Positions 2,241 through 12,170 of a stretch of DNA of 14,309 nucleotides are shown one piece after another. The notes under the pieces are model-generated. The model saw only the letters and a program-made list of their open reading frames with translations, made no database searches and had not been told where the DNA came from. The stretch is from a bacterium. Lineage in GTDB: Bacteria; T1Sed10-126. Location: NCBI GenBank assembly GCA_003557545.1, contig PWOD01000166.1, forward strand, positions 1 to 14,309, in the 5' to 3' direction. The first letter of the stretch is position 1. Each line of letters begins with the position of its first letter. Position numbers and translations under genes: made by a program.

Positions 2241-2424
2241 TAAGAATATCTCCTGCAAGTTGATCTAAAATTTCTATTGAAGAATCGAAAAAATCCTCTG
2301 ATAGATTAAATTTCAATAACAACGAAATTACTCTTTTATCTTTGTATAGAGGAAGTTCCAGCTGGTCGGCAAGATATTCAACCCGCTCTGCTCTGGCTTT
2401 GTCGTGATCCCCTGGTTGTTTCAT
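2227..2424 (-). CDS. Small orphan FlhB C-terminal-domain-like protein (YlqH-like)
   Basis: This 65-residue protein resembles the soluble C-terminal (post-cleavage) domain of FlhB/EscU/YscU, the substrate-specificity switch of flagellar and type III export. The recognisable stretch is residues 13-60: a helix with ADQLELPLY, then KDKRVISLLLKF, then LSEDFF and a final helix, matching the family pattern 'A..N.IPi.eD..La..L.k...g..IPeelY..vaevla'. It lacks membrane segments and the NPTH autocleavage motif, as does B. subtilis YlqH (about 93 aa), so it is a free-standing domain and shorter than usual at the N-terminus. The ATG overlaps the preceding stop in an ATGA arrangement. A stop lies four codons upstream in frame, so no longer start exists. 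Position directly after a FliK-like gene supports the assignment. Function of such orphans is not established. Confidence 0.75.
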   Translation of the reverse strand: MKQPGDHDKARAERVEYLADQLELPLYKDKRVISLLLKFNLSEDFFDSSIEILDQLAGDILNEEL

Positions 2425-3623
2425 GCCATGTAGTCAACTCCCGGACCACCCTTACGAGGTTCACGTGGAAAAACTGCCAGGGGATCGGCCAGAGGTTCCG
2501 GTTCTGTACTCTGCCGCACTATCCGCGTCCTGTATCCCCGACTCTTGAGCTGTTTAACCGAAGAGAATATCTGCCGGTCGATTCGATTTAATAATTTATC
2601 CGAAGCCATACGCAACTTAATCCCCAGGTACTGCTTCTTATGCTCAACCTGAAGCCCAACCAGCGGATAGTCAGTTGCACCAAGTTGTATGTGTGCCTGC
2701 CAGTTACAACATGGCTTATGGCCGATCGCTGCCGGTTTAACAAAGAACAATTGTAAATATTTCCACCGTTTACCGGGCGGAACCGGCAACAGAATATTCA
2801 GCTGATTTGAGTCAGAACAATTATGTAAAGCAATAGCCAGAATCAGGGCCAGAGCTTGCCGATTCTTTCCCGAGTCGGCCTCCGTAGTTTTTCGCAATAG
2901 TTTCGCATGTAGAGTATCACAGGCCTGTTGGCCCGCCGTCAACAGCCGGCCAGGAAGATCGAATCCCACCTGCCGAAGCAGTTTGAAAAGTGCAAACCCA
3001 CCTCCACTCGAATTACCATACAATACCCGTGCCAGATAATCCCAATCGATCAGGTGACGGTCAAACGATAAAAATGACAGGTGGTTGAGCAAGCTGCTCC
3101 TCAGGGGTAAATCACGGTTTAATAGAAAAATCGCCGCCTGCAAACGGGCGGCGGTCAGCTTGCCCTGCGGGTCAATCAAAAGAGCCCAGTTATCAGCCAG
3201 GCTGGTCAGCACCGACAGATCGGGGAAAATATCTGTCTCAAGCAACAACCTGGTAAGTTGGGTAAGTTTACTGGTTGGAGTTAGCCCCATTGATCCAACA
3301 ATCCGATCAAGTTGACGGTCAGTTAATTCGGTTCCAGCATCCCGTGGCCGGTAGATTTTTAATTCTATTGGATGTTTGAGAGAAACCACCTTAACAACAA
3401 GAGAATCACCGGGTGATACATTAGGCTGACTGGCGGCCACTACCTGCTGACCTTTAATGTTCAACAACAACCGTCGATGAGGGCCAGGAAGAATAGTTTC
3501 TACTTGAGCATAGAGCAACTCCCCCTTACGAAGTTTCAAACTTCTTGCCAGCCCACCCCCGGGGGGCCACTCATATTGACTATTTTCAAGTTCGCTACGA
3601 GAGTCGGAAAATCTTTCCGACAA
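2421..3623 (-). CDS. FliK/YlqG-like hypothetical protein
   Basis: This 400-residue protein is similar in plan to flagellar hook-length-control FliK and to YlqG of the Bacillus rplS region. Residues about 30-90 look like the small beta domain of FliK-like proteins (KGELLYAQVETILPG, then NIKGQQVVAAS, then PGDSLVVKVV). The middle (100-275) is helical and leucine-rich. Residues about 285-370 resemble the FliK C-terminal domain: an LGATDYPLVGLQVE strand region, then KLRMAS and a long helix ending LKSRGYRTRIV. A polar tail follows. The start is TTG at 3623: a stop codon immediately precedes it in frame, no other initiator occurs nearby, and GAGG inside the last rplS codons lies about 10 nt upstream. 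Only 5 nt separate it from the rplS stop. Assignment rests on architecture and neighbourhood (FlhB-like gene next), not on strong motifs. It may be unrelated to flagella. Confidence 0.62.
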   Translation of the reverse strand: MSERFSDSRSELENSQYEWPPGGGLARSLKLRKGELLYAQVETILPGPHRRLLLNIKGQQVVAASQPNVSPGDSLVVKVVSLKHPIELKIYRPRDAGTELTDRQLDRIVGSMGLTPTSKLTQLTRLLLETDIFPDLSVLTSLADNWALLIDPQGKLTAARLQAAIFLLNRDLPLRSSLLNHLSFLSFDRHLIDWDYLARVLYGNSSGGGFALFKLLRQVGFDLPGRLLTAGQQACDTLHAKLLRKTTEADSGKNRQALALILAIALHNCSDSNQLNILLPVPPGKRWKYLQLFFVKPAAIGHKPCCNWQAHIQLGATDYPLVGLQVEHKKQYLGIKLRMASDKLLNRIDRQIFSSVKQLKSRGYRTRIVRQSTEPEPLADPLAVFPREPRKGGPGVDYMA

Positions 3624-7874: not shown

Positions 7875-9200
7875 TCAGCGATTTTGCAAAAATTTTCGGG
7901 CTGGTATAGCCAGTGCATGGTTCATCGAATTAAGCTCGGGGTGATAAATTGCTTCTAATTGAGCTAATTCAGCAACCGTAGCATGTTTCTGCAGATAAAA
8001 GGCCAGGGGAGCCAACAAGAAGCCGGCCAGGTTAGCCTCGGCAGCAATTTCTCCAGCCAGCAACTGGCCGGTAGTTTTATCGATTGCTATCCGACTATAA
8101 ACCTCACGCCATTTTTGATAAAACCGAACTTTGGTGGTAGACTCCAACCAGACCGAGGTGGTCGGTAGATCGGACGGCATCATCCCAATTCTGGCGATAC
8201 TTCGATTGGTCAGAGCCAGACCCAATTTTTTAACCCCTTTAGCCCTGTCCTGACCACGACCGGCAATATCCAACCCGGCTATCCAACCGTCCAGTGAGGC
8301 GGCACTGGCCACCGGCCAGGAGGCCCGTGAATTGTCAAACTGGGGTCGTAAAATAATGTCGCCCACAGCATAAATCCCCTGCACACCGGTTCGCATCCTG
8401 TTATCAACAGGAACCGCCCCCGAACTATCAAGGTTGAAGCTGGGATCATTAAGATAGTCGGTCAGTGGTCTGGTCCCCAGCGCAGCTATCACCGTTCCAG
8501 CACTAAACTGTGCGCTGTCAGTAGTTATCTGAAATCTTCCATGATTCTTTTGTATATCTTTAACCATCTGTCCTTCAAACAGCTTCACACCAGCGGCAGT
8601 CAACTCCTCAGCCACCAGACGGCTAAAATCTCTACTGAAGGGAAGCATCAACCGCTCACCCTCAATAACTCCCACAGTATAGCCCTTTTCCGAAAGGGAA
8701 TCAGCGGTTTCGACCCCCACAACACCTCCACCAATAATAAACACCGGTTCTGTTTTACGCAGACTACTATTGAGCTCCTCAATCTCATCTACCCGGTTAA
8801 TCGTAAATATTTCATCGGCCGCTGTAAAAGATGGAGGAACCACCGGTTCGGCTCCCGTAGCCAGTACCAGTTTTCCATATTCCAACTCAGCCGTTTGACC
8901 ATTCTTCCTCCTGCAAAGCACCGTTTTACGAGCCGTTTGCACCCTGACAGCTTCGGTTTCTAATAAAAAATTTACATCATATTTTTCAGCAAACTTTTCA
9001 GGGTCACGATGAATCAGATCAGCCTTTTTAACATCCATCTGGCCGGCAGCATAGGGCAGATCACAGTGAGCGTGACCTAAAAAATCATTTTTTTCAACTA
9101 CCGTAATCGGTCGATTATCGTTACAACGGCGTACTGCCAGTACCGTTGATAATCCCCCATCATTTCCGCCAAGAATTACTAGATGTTCACGCGAACTCAT
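7875..9200 (-). CDS. FAD/NAD(P)-dependent oxidoreductase, CoA-disulfide reductase/NADH oxidase type
   Basis: This belongs to the single-cysteine pyridine-nucleotide-disulfide oxidoreductases (CoA-disulfide reductase, NADH oxidase/peroxidase, persulfide reductase), soluble flavoproteins that move electrons from NAD(P)H to disulfides, polysulfide or oxygen. Start: ATG at 9200 (441 aa) is preferred because AGGTGA lies 5 nt upstream; the GTG at 9209 overlaps that site. Seen: FAD-binding VILGGNDGG (8-16), the redox Cys46 in HCDLPY, ATGAEP (114-119), NAD-binding FIIGGGVVGVE (155-165), second FAD motif GIYAVGD (275-281), and a dimerisation domain ending near AIYHPELNS. The motif around Cys46 is unusual: family members commonly have N-C-G/A-LPY where this has H-C-D-LPY. 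There is no rhodanese fusion. It stands alone, 95 bp or more from its neighbours, so substrate cannot be set from context. Confidence 0.88.
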   Translation of the reverse strand: MSSREHLVILGGNDGGLSTVLAVRRCNDNRPITVVEKNDFLGHAHCDLPYAAGQMDVKKADLIHRDPEKFAEKYDVNFLLETEAVRVQTARKTVLCRRKNGQTAELEYGKLVLATGAEPVVPPSFTAADEIFTINRVDEIEELNSSLRKTEPVFIIGGGVVGVETADSLSEKGYTVGVIEGERLMLPFSRDFSRLVAEELTAAGVKLFEGQMVKDIQKNHGRFQITTDSAQFSAGTVIAALGTRPLTDYLNDPSFNLDSSGAVPVDNRMRTGVQGIYAVGDIILRPQFDNSRASWPVASAASLDGWIAGLDIAGRGQDRAKGVKKLGLALTNRSIARIGMMPSDLPTTSVWLESTTKVRFYQKWREVYSRIAIDKTTGQLLAGEIAAEANLAGFLLAPLAFYLQKHATVAELAQLEAIYHPELNSMNHALAIPARKFLQNR

Positions 9201-9304
9201 AGTTGTCACCTTTTCTATGAAACATTAGATAAACTTTTTTAACAGCTCAGGTGGAATAGATAAAATTTCCCGGGGGGTAAGAGCTACCATTAACTTATAA
9301 ACCA

Positions 9305-10621
9305 TCAAAGCACATTCAACATTTGCTGTGCATAATCATCTCCGGGATCAATTTCCAGCACCTCTTCAAAGCGCTGGCGAGCTGCATCCATATTACCCAG
9401 CTGATATTCAGTAACTCCTAACCAGTTGAGGTTATCTGTATCTTCAGGTTCCTCTTCGTAGCAGAGCAAAAACAGGTCACGAGCCTCCTGATAATTTCCA
9501 GCTTCAAAAGCCTCTATTCCCTGATCATAGGTGGCTTCCCAGTCAAATGGTTCGGGCTCTGGTTCGGGCTCTGGTTCGGGCTCGGGCTCGGGGTCAGGTT
9601 CTGGCTCAGGCTCGGGTTCTGGTTCAGGATCTGGTTCTGGTTCAGGATCGGGCTCAACCACCGGAGCGGGTTCCCTATCACCAAAACTATATTTAAAAGC
9701 TAACCGGTGAAGATCACCAAAAACACCGTAGGGTATATAGGCATAGTCCAATCCCATTCGCTGATCCAGATTAAAGCCAAACCCGGCGGTCAGACCGCTA
9801 CTTATTTCATCCAGACTGCCATCATATCCAGCTCTGATCGCAATCTCATCGGTGGCTTCCCACTCCATCCCCCAGAGGATCCCCAGCTCACTACTGTGAA
9901 TCTGGTATTCAAAGTCCAGGTGAGTTTTCAAATCTATATTCAGTTCATTAATCAGATTATAGCTAATCCCCAACTGGGTCAGCAGGGGAAGATCTTCACT
10001 CTCACTATCAAATTTCGGCTGGGTCCCCAGGTTGGCCAGAATAATGCCGGCCGAAAGAGGCAATCCAGGATCAGATGAATGCCACTGCAAACCGCCGTCA
10101 ACAGCAACTGCATTAGCTGACACCTGACCAACCTCCAGGTGGATAATTTTACCGGCAGCCCCCCAGCTCCAATCACCCATTCTTTCAGCATAACCAAAAC
10201 TGGCAACCAGGTCAAAATCACTAAATCGACCTGTACGGGTCAATTGACCACCAACCAGCTCCGTACGCTCTTCAGATCCATAATTAAGATATCTTATACC
10301 ACTCGCCATCATTCTATTCGGACCAAATCTATGAGTATAATCAATGTTTCCGTAACTGATATCCTCCACCATCTGCTGATATGTAAACTCCAGATCCCGC
10401 CCCTGACTAAAAGCCAGACCAGCCGGATTATAATGCAGAGCAGACGGTCCCCTGACCGCAGCAACTCCCGCTCCTCCCATCGCCGGATTAACTGCACCGG
10501 GACCGATTCGAAGCACCTCCCCTGTGGTCTGTCCGGCATCTCCAGCCAATAGTTCCCCCATCGGTGACAGGATAAAGACCATTACCCCCAGTAATAACAG
10601 GAGTTTAAAACCTGTTTTCAT
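9305..10621 (-). CDS. PorV-like outer-membrane beta-barrel with Pro-Glu linker and C-terminal TPRs
   Basis: Start ATG at 10621 (438 aa) is chosen: it opens a clear signal peptide ([12 protein letters not shown], cleavage probable after LLA at 26) with GAGG about 8 nt upstream; a TTG at 10657 would overlap the preceding gene. Residues about 30-315 fit the PorV/UPF0164 family of outer-membrane barrels: NPAMGGAG (45-52), YNPAGL (64-69), and alternating amphipathic strands such as SGIRYLNYG, the last ending [10 protein letters not shown] linker of repeated Glu-Pro and Asp-Pro (about 324-358) then leads to two TPR units (about 360-430). This suggests a barrel with a periplasmic TPR arm held off by a stiff spacer. 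In type IX secretion PorV binds cargo at the cell surface; whether this protein does so is inference. It follows the secreted GLUG/FlgD-Ig gene by 25 bp. Confidence 0.83.
9548..9652 (-). repeat. In-frame Pro-Glu/Pro-Asp coding repeat
   Basis: About 35 codons alternate CC-Pro with GA-Glu/Asp, so the DNA is an imperfect run of 6-bp units (GAGCCC/GAACCA and variants). Third positions vary between units, showing the run is not a freshly expanded identical repeat. It forms the spacer between the barrel and the TPR domain. Confidence 0.85.
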
Positions 10622-10646
10622 TAAAACCGCCTCACTTTCAATTATT

Positions 10647-12170
10647 CTAACGGACAATTGCCAGTCTACCGCGCCTGGTATCTCCAGTTGAACGCTGAGT
10701 TACCTGGTAAATATAATGCCCACTACTCAGCCTATCTCCAGCATTATTTCTCAAATCCCAGTTATACGGATCATCATCTGTCGTAGTCGAATAGACCAAT
10801 CCACCGGTTATCGTATAGATTTCTAAATGATAGGGTCCCACACCTACCTGATCAAACTTAAACTTCATCTCTTCTTCCGCAACTTCATCATATCGAAAAG
10901 GATTAGGGCCCACTATAAAATCATTTAGCCCACCTACTATCGGGTCATCGGAGGCTTCACCAAACCTGGCTTCTATCCTATAAAAGTTCTCGGACGGATC
11001 AATATAAAGCTGAAGTTCAGTATCCTGCTGCACGGTCATCCCCGTCGGATCGACCGTCCATCTAAGAAAAGGATAGGTTTCCGAATCAACCGCCTGCAAA
11101 ACTATCGTATCTCCGGGAACCAGCCCCCGCGTATCAATCTGATTATAACTTACCCCATCCAGCAGAACCTCGCCCTGACCCGTTATCTCAAGGGTCAGCT
11201 GATTACTGATCAACCATACCGGAGAATCCTTACCGGCTGTCCCGTAAGCCTTTGTATCAGGAGTCAAATAGGGAAAACCATGACTGCCAATCAACCCCAC
11301 TCCCTGACGTTCAAAATCATAAACGGCAGTTCCTCCAATATCCCAGCCTGCCTCTTTAAATGTATTCATATTACGTAATTCAACGGTGGTCCTGCCTGCG
11401 CCCGGAGCTGCTTGCTCCCCCTGGTTATTAAATAAATCACTATTCCAAAAATTCCCCGTGTCACTACTGTTTGTAAATTTTCCAACTATTGGCCCAACTG
11501 ATGTTTCCCCCTCAACCACAGCCTGGACCAGACTATGTTGAATGCTACCCTGGTTTAATTTCCCGGCCAGACCACCAACAATCTGCTTCCCCTGCACATC
11601 ACTGCCAATTACTTTGATATTTTTTAGCCGGACCCCCTCAACATCACTGAACAGACTGCCTACATAAGAATCTCCACGAACAGTAAAATTTTTAATGTAA
11701 AAATCTCTTATAACGGCTGTATCATGGGGCGGTCGAACATATCCGAAATAAGCAATATAGCTGCTATCCGGCGAATCATTACACCAATTACTGATTATCT
11801 GGCCTTGACCATCAATACTTTGTGGCGCAGGAAAGGGACTATCCGGGGTTCCCAGAATGGGATCATTACAATCATTGGCCAGCGGGGATAACCGACCGGG
11901 GCCCGGCCTGGAACCAAAATCAATATCATCCACCAAGGCGTAGTGGGCGGCTTGATGGCGCTCCGGGTAAGCCCTACCAAACTCCGCCATATTTGTTAAC
12001 TGTTCAGCAGTCATGATAAGATAAGGATCGTCCAGCGTACCCGATCCACCGGCAAACAACTCTGCTGCCAGCGAATCCGCGGCAATCAGCATCCCGGGTC
12101 TCATCATTCCCACACCCCAAAACAGCAGAATTAATCCCACCGCAACCAGAATGAGCCAGGTTTTCTCCAT
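10647..12170 (-). CDS. Secreted GLUG-repeat protein with FlgD-Ig-like C-terminal domain
   Basis: The 507-residue protein starts at ATG 12170 with AAAGGA about 9 nt upstream. Residues 1-31 are a signal peptide or N-terminal anchor. From about 40 it has the [17 protein letters not shown] opening typical of surface beta-helix proteins, then GLUG-type units: [12 protein letters not shown] (169-180), [17 protein letters not shown] (197-213) and a weaker SVGPIVGKF (224-232). Residues about 325-405 look like a bacterial repeat beta domain ([10 protein letters not shown] ... YRIEARFGE). Residues 418-507 form a FlgD-Ig/type-IX-sorting-like domain: PNPF at 422-425, [15 protein letters not shown]471 [19 protein letters not shown], ending RRGRLAIVR. 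Two cysteines only (101 and 130) could form a disulfide. No catalytic motif is visible; adhesion or a surface-layer role is possible. It is the first gene of a pair with the PorV-like barrel. Confidence 0.8.

Follow-up and report, generated by a model that had tools for sequence, protein, structure and literature searches.

A PorV/PorQ-family barrel gene directly downstream of a C-terminal-domain adhesin-like gene: a probable cargo-carrier pair of a divergent type IX-like secretion pathway

Introduction

In F. johnsoniae, the C-terminal domain (CTD) of a type IX secretion system (T9SS) substrate enters the SprA pore, binds the loops of PorV and exits together with PorV through a lateral opening, and release of the substrate needs a motor (PMC10994853). 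The CTDs of PorU and PorZ are reported to escape cleavage and to stay attached to PorV and PorQ, respectively (PMC10202324), and adhesins of the SprB type stay on a dedicated carrier that is encoded directly downstream and whose periplasmic tail links to the energy track (PMC12618676, PMC12635249). The T9SS and its CTD proteins are described as restricted to Bacteroidota (PMC10202324, PMC12618676), and elsewhere the system is described as restricted to the FCB superphylum (PMC11205867). The part of the literature that we covered on T9SS in Halanaerobiales, Elusimicrobia, Gemmatimonadetes and candidate phyla describes no pairs of the kind reported here, which is weak evidence.

Here we analyze a bacterial contig of 14,309 nucleotides (PWOD01000166.1, assembly GCA_003557545.1; hereafter the window, also contig C231), which belongs to a 2.15-Mb assembly that is 92% complete and comprises 239 contigs. 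With a probability of roughly three in four, two genes of the window encode the cargo and the carrier of a divergent outer-membrane secretion pathway akin to type IX. This pair resembles the P. gingivalis PorZ-PorQ/PorU-PorV attachment complex in that its CTD is nearest to PorZ and PorU in both fold and profile; the CTD is retained on its cognate barrel there (PMC10202324) and would be here. It differs in that its cargo appears to be an adhesin and not an attachment enzyme, that there are seven pairs per genome as opposed to one of each, that no catalytic part of PorU was found in the window's genome, and that the barrel, while scoring higher with the PorQ model than with the PorV model, misses both equivalog cut-offs. 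With SprB-SprF of F. johnsoniae, a type B CTD on a PorP/SprF carrier, it shares a carrier gene directly downstream of the adhesin gene, several dedicated carriers accompanied by additional orphan cargoes, and a C-terminal carrier tail that is probably periplasmic here as well. However, the window carrier is of the PorV/PorQ family, its CTD resembles type A/PorZ rather than type B, the tail is a TPR domain in some copies in this genome, and GldLM was not detected in it. The SprA-PorV core of the T9SS is paralleled by an SprA-like protein matched over most of its length, a PorV-fold barrel and CTD substrates, whereas the SprA of this genome is divergent, about 1700 aa long and under the curated cut-off, several PorV-family proteins are present, the genome lies outside Bacteroidota, and searches of it found neither GldL/M nor the PorU catalytic part. 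The pair is filed as a divergent system of the T9SS kind with a core-like working, not as a complete T9SS.

Results

Both genes are open frames on the minus strand, at 10647-12170 and 9305-10657. The CTD cargo gene (10647-12170) is an intact ORF with an ATG start, encoding 507 aa with a hydrophobic N-terminal signal or anchor. Within the second frame the likely true start is the ATG at 10621, giving a barrel gene at 9305-10621 and a protein of 438 aa with a signal peptide. The cargo stop codon lies at 10649-10647 and the barrel ATG at 10621-10619, leaving 25 bp between the genes (10622-10646) in which no terminator-like site was found; in several other CTD-barrel pairs the genes overlap by 4 bp instead. 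These positions, together with a family match of 161 bits, confirm the preliminary description in placing a PorV-like barrel 25 bp downstream of a gene for a secreted protein. The same description had called the gene context Firmicutes-like, which did not hold: a Firmicutes/Halanaerobiales affinity is rejected, the phylum being represented by two genomes in the collection searched.

The barrel protein passes the cut-off of the NCBIfam PorV_fam model NF033709 (161.1 bits against 90) and misses those of the PorV equivalog NF033710 (64.5 against 250) and the PorQ equivalog NF033711 (117.7 against 220), while a profile search matches PorV 6h3i at E 1.3e-31. Barrel and CTD structures were predicted singly. 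The AlphaFold model of the former (pLDDT 86) is a 14-stranded beta barrel (9680-10522, aa 34-314) whose best fold match is F. johnsoniae PorV, at Z 33.2 and 32.9, with FadL and its relatives at 30.3 or below. By sequence and predicted fold, the protein belongs to the PorV/PorQ family. The barrel is followed by an acidic Pro/Glu/Asp-rich linker (9548-9673, aa 317-358) and a C-terminal TPR domain (9308-9547, aa 359-438), which has Pfam TPR matches, is helical in the model and matches TPR folds at Z ~15. Barrel topology would place the TPR domain in the periplasm. Linker and tail together (9308-9673) occur in the barrels of contigs C231, C119 and C136, three of the six clear paralogues, and are a possible periplasmic handle.

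The cargo protein opens with a putative signal/anchor segment (12078-12170, aa ~1-31), recognized from its hydrophobic sequence. The passenger region (11211-12071, aa 34-320) has no Pfam match of its own and shares homology with repeats found in giant adhesin-like proteins encoded by the same genome; aa 34-392 are matched in open frames of up to 5487 aa, and sibling proteins of the passenger score with GLUG (PF07581). A B-repeat-like domain follows (10992-11198, aa 325-393), for which PF18998 gives E 0.014, under the cut-off, in the window cargo and up to 296 bits in sibling cargoes.

The CTD itself (10650-10952, aa 407-507) bears the motif GPNPF...G.Y.Y...GRLAIVR and ends at the stop codon. 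By single-sequence HMM it falls under all curated CTD cut-offs, with 18.9 bits for CHU_C (PF13585) and 17.8 for FlgD_ig (PF13860), both against a Pfam gathering score of 27, and 18.0 for Por_Secre_tail type A (TIGR04183) against a curated cut-off of 23. We nonetheless accept it as real because of the profile and structure comparisons. A sequence profile search ranks PorU (1.9e-9) and PorZ (1.9e-8) ahead of FlgD (1e-3), as does Foldseek (PorZ 7.6e-7, PorU 1e-4, FlgD 4.5e-3). The AlphaFold model, built from 13 sequences (pLDDT 77), is a seven-stranded Ig-like beta sandwich at the extreme C-terminus, and when 999 PDB chains were re-aligned by VIA-align, T9SS CTDs took all six top places (Z 11.8 for PorZ, 10.6 for PorU, 10.1 for mirolase, 10.0 for NucA, 9.2 for RemA and 9.1 for FspA). 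The domain is predicted to fold like T9SS CTDs, with PorZ and PorU nearest and FlgD clearly weaker. The terminal PNPF...RRGRLAIVR region had initially been likened to either sorting or FlgD-Ig domains; profile and fold favor the former, and identity with an ordinary FlgD-Ig domain is rejected on the rank of FlgD behind PorZ and PorU. A residue near the C-terminus is basic in 25 of 25 CTD copies, as Lys in 11 and Arg in 14, including the window cargo. Type A CTDs have a near-invariant Lys near the C-terminus, and the Arg in 14 of 25 copies counts against the reading as a dedicated pair.

Each of the six clear PorV-family genes in the window's genome lies immediately downstream of a CTD gene in the same orientation, as does a seventh, weaker one on contig C198. 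If placement were independent (about 30 CTD genes among about 2000 genes), six of six would occur with a chance of ~1e-11, a figure that overstates the case for adjacency because duplicated pairs are related. The matrix of pairwise identities among the six barrels correlates with that among their partner CTDs (Mantel r 0.73, p 0.003), an indication that pairs duplicate or evolve together. No clustering of the barrel-adjacent CTDs in a single clade was found in a CTD tree that is poorly resolved. Most CTD proteins of the genome lie without an adjacent barrel, so that either carriers are shared or only some cargoes are anchored in this way.

The two genes also co-occur in relatives. In the sister genome, the other genome of the phylum, nine of ten PorV-family genes directly follow a CTD gene in the stretches examined, several with a 4-bp ATGA overlap, and the tenth follows another PorV-family gene. 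The order CTD gene, then PorV-family gene, is found in records named Hydrogenedentota, Elusimicrobia and Gemmatimonadota and in one labelled Nealsonbacteria (loci L104, L105, L110, L117, L125, L128 and L130), and in genomes of further families, where some cases look like PorU-PorV operons. At Elusimicrobia and Ignavibacteria loci the PorV-family gene often has other upstream neighbors; the members of the family are therefore not all cargo carriers. The idea of a dedicated two-gene export or surface-anchoring pair, raised from the window alone, gains from the adjacency, the matrix correlation and the PorV and T9SS-CTD folds; what does not stand is a pair working in isolation, given an SprA-like translocon and some 25-30 CTD cargoes in the same genome.

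Several of these records are of separate interest. Locus L104 (PWGJ01000035.1) is labelled Candidatus Nealsonbacteria, a group without a known outer membrane; it has a CTD-PorV pair with a barrel that shares 45% identity with the one in the window, and the record is probably mis-binned. At the Ignavibacteria/Bacteroidetes-labelled loci L118, L119, L120 and L122, the PorV-family gene overlaps by 4 bp a gene of ~945 aa with a C-terminus that looks like a TonB-dependent receptor. In a Margulisiibacteriota protein (L126:9992-12406), a weakly PorV-like N-terminal region is joined to a peptidase S49 domain.

The search proposed beforehand for other proteins ending in this CTD was productive, with 25 aligned proteins in the window's genome and about 30 when weaker copies are counted. 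Many of these are giant proteins that carry GLUG motifs, InlB B-repeat-like domains or BspA leucine-rich repeats and are adhesin-like by sequence. The parallel search for Sov and Gld homologues succeeded in part: an SprA/Sov-like translocon was found, but GldL and GldM were not detected. The translocon gene is broken between two contigs, at the ends of C23 and C86. Its product matches TIGR04189 at E 2.9e-21 (74.5 bits, below the curated cut-off of 200), and a profile of 19 SprA relatives matches at E 1.4e-96 (model positions 156-1095) and 7.6e-15 (1180-1362), in collinear order on the two pieces, the pattern that a single protein of ~1700 aa would give. Neither phmmer against the PDB nor Pfam returned a match for the halves. 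A homologue in the sister genome (52% identity over 122 aa) is likewise a fragment at the edge of a contig. The SprA-like contigs resemble the window in GC and tetranucleotides (correlations 0.81 and 0.92, foreign loci ~0); contamination as their source is unlikely on grounds of composition and the sister homologue, less firmly so for the 3-kb contig. In this genome, 92% complete, the GldM HMM gave no match at E<=10 and GldL reached a best E of 0.74; the GldM HMM is Bacteroidota-built and the assembly fragmented, and very divergent motors could escape it. The PorU catalytic part was likewise not found in the genome: of 24 PorU HMM matches, 23 fall on CTDs and one, short and weak, just before a CTD. 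An outer membrane is supported by Kdo and heptose genes (KdsA, KdsB, KdsC and a heptose kinase-like HldE domain) and by a secretin-family protein. Beside the SprA-like gene lie genes of a Tad-type pilus, among them one for a secretin-family protein.

Distribution was surveyed in 98 genomes, the relatives being a single member of the same family plus 96 genomes that represent other families of the domain. In 30 genomes a strong PorV-family match (E<1e-30) accompanies an SprA match (E<1e-5); strong PorV stands alone in 2, SprA alone in 3, and 63 have neither (Fisher p 1.7e-19, the families not being statistically independent), and at least three CTD hits against SprA give the same 30/2/3/63 table. 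One of the two exceptions with strong PorV is the sister genome, which carries the SprA fragment, and none of the 63 genomes with neither has more than one CTD hit. Judged by these sequence matches, PorV-family barrels, SprA and CTDs co-occur almost perfectly across families. GldM was detected in none of the 33 SprA-positive genomes, although its HMM reached 362 bits in one genome of the set. That sole GldM-positive genome of the 98 (L167, G062:C1:3473543-3475060) has no SprA match at E<=1e-5.

Discussion

The two genes and their families, the repeated adjacency, the co-occurrence with SprA and the presence of an SprA-like protein are supported by sequence or structure prediction. Secretion, binding of the CTD by the barrel, permanent anchoring, the source of energy and the role of the TPR tail are inferred. 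The 507-aa cargo protein would be exported by Sec, after which its CTD would enter the SprA/Sov-like translocon and bind the PorV/PorQ-family barrel docked there. The complex of barrel and CTD would then exit through the lateral opening together with the cargo. The uncut CTD would remain on its own barrel, which would serve as a surface anchor in the manner of PorZ/PorQ, PorU/PorV and SprB/SprF; retention is the simplest reading because a sortase was not detected. Where a carrier has the Pro/Glu linker and TPR tail, these presumably periplasmic extensions may connect its barrel with a partner in the periplasm. Counting against the pair reading, the SprA-like gene is split and below the curated cut-off, GldM and GldL were not detected, and the majority of CTD proteins in the genome have no barrel next to them.

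A complete T9SS of the Bacteroidota type could underlie the same observations if the PorU sortase and GldLM were too divergent or unassembled, with the CTD cleaved after export. The SprA-like protein and ~25-30 CTD cargoes would fit such a system, and an assembly that is 92% complete over 239 contigs leaves room for missing genes. Yet the PorU HMM matches fall on CTDs and never on the catalytic part, GldM and GldL went undetected, and GldM is missing from every one of the SprA-positive genomes under an HMM that is capable of a strong score; dedicated carriers, moreover, argue for retention of the CTD. We consider a complete system unlikely. That the barrel anchors the CTD while the cargo reaches the surface by another route, the SprA-like protein having a different job, seems more improbable still. 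The Tad-type pilus genes with their secretin-family protein adjoin the SprA-like gene, and no motor was found, both of which would suit this explanation, but SprA is found in the same families as strong PorV-family barrels and CTDs, and substrates of SprA-PorV are known to carry this CTD fold as their signal (PMC10994853).

The barrel might instead be a FadL-type transporter or a BAM accessory (BamG-like), next to an ordinary FlgD-Ig domain with which its adjacency is incidental. FadL/TodX and BamG folds do match the barrel at Z 25-30, and the Pfam FlgD_ig score of the CTD is close to that for CHU_C. PorV nonetheless comes first in both sequence and fold, the CTD has its closest matches in PorU, PorZ and other T9SS CTDs and not in FlgD, and the adjacency recurs across genomes, leaving this explanation only a very slim chance. 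The cargo-carrier pair of a divergent type IX-like pathway is the reading that we prefer.

Our findings suggest that the T9SS core recurs in a phylum of two collection genomes, against the restriction to Bacteroidota or the FCB superphylum given in reviews, and that in ~30 bacterial families without detected GldM, SprA is accompanied by strong PorV-family barrels and CTDs. Whether a core type IX system (SprA, PorV/PorQ-type carriers and retained CTD adhesins) lacking GldLM and PorU is a widespread secretion and anchoring route beyond Bacteroidota, energized differently and perhaps via the periplasmic tails of the carriers, is a broader proposition that we advance tentatively and regard as less likely than not. 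How an SprA-type translocon is powered without GldLM becomes testable, as does the question of whether CTDs originated as permanent anchors on a cognate barrel and became subject to cleavage afterwards. For a lineage that is uncultured, the pairs further yield a set of predicted surface adhesins.

Other observations concern the same genome. At L038:13215-16542, TolQ/TolR/TonB-like genes are followed by a TPR protein, and within the TonB-like gene, positions 14543-14707 of this locus share 71% identity with the window barrel's acidic Pro-rich linker region; the cluster is a candidate energy source only. Two tandem TPR proteins lie at L037:585-3560, one with a weak outer-membrane beta-barrel match. 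Elsewhere in the window, 7875-9209 encodes an FAD/NAD-dependent oxidoreductase near CoA-disulfide reductase, scoring 212 bits where the cut-off is 579, and a 400-aa minus-strand ORF with no Pfam match (2421-3623) lies between rplS and an HD-domain gene. An HD_5 (HD-GYP-like) domain protein at 864-2258 adjoins rho and is convergent with it.
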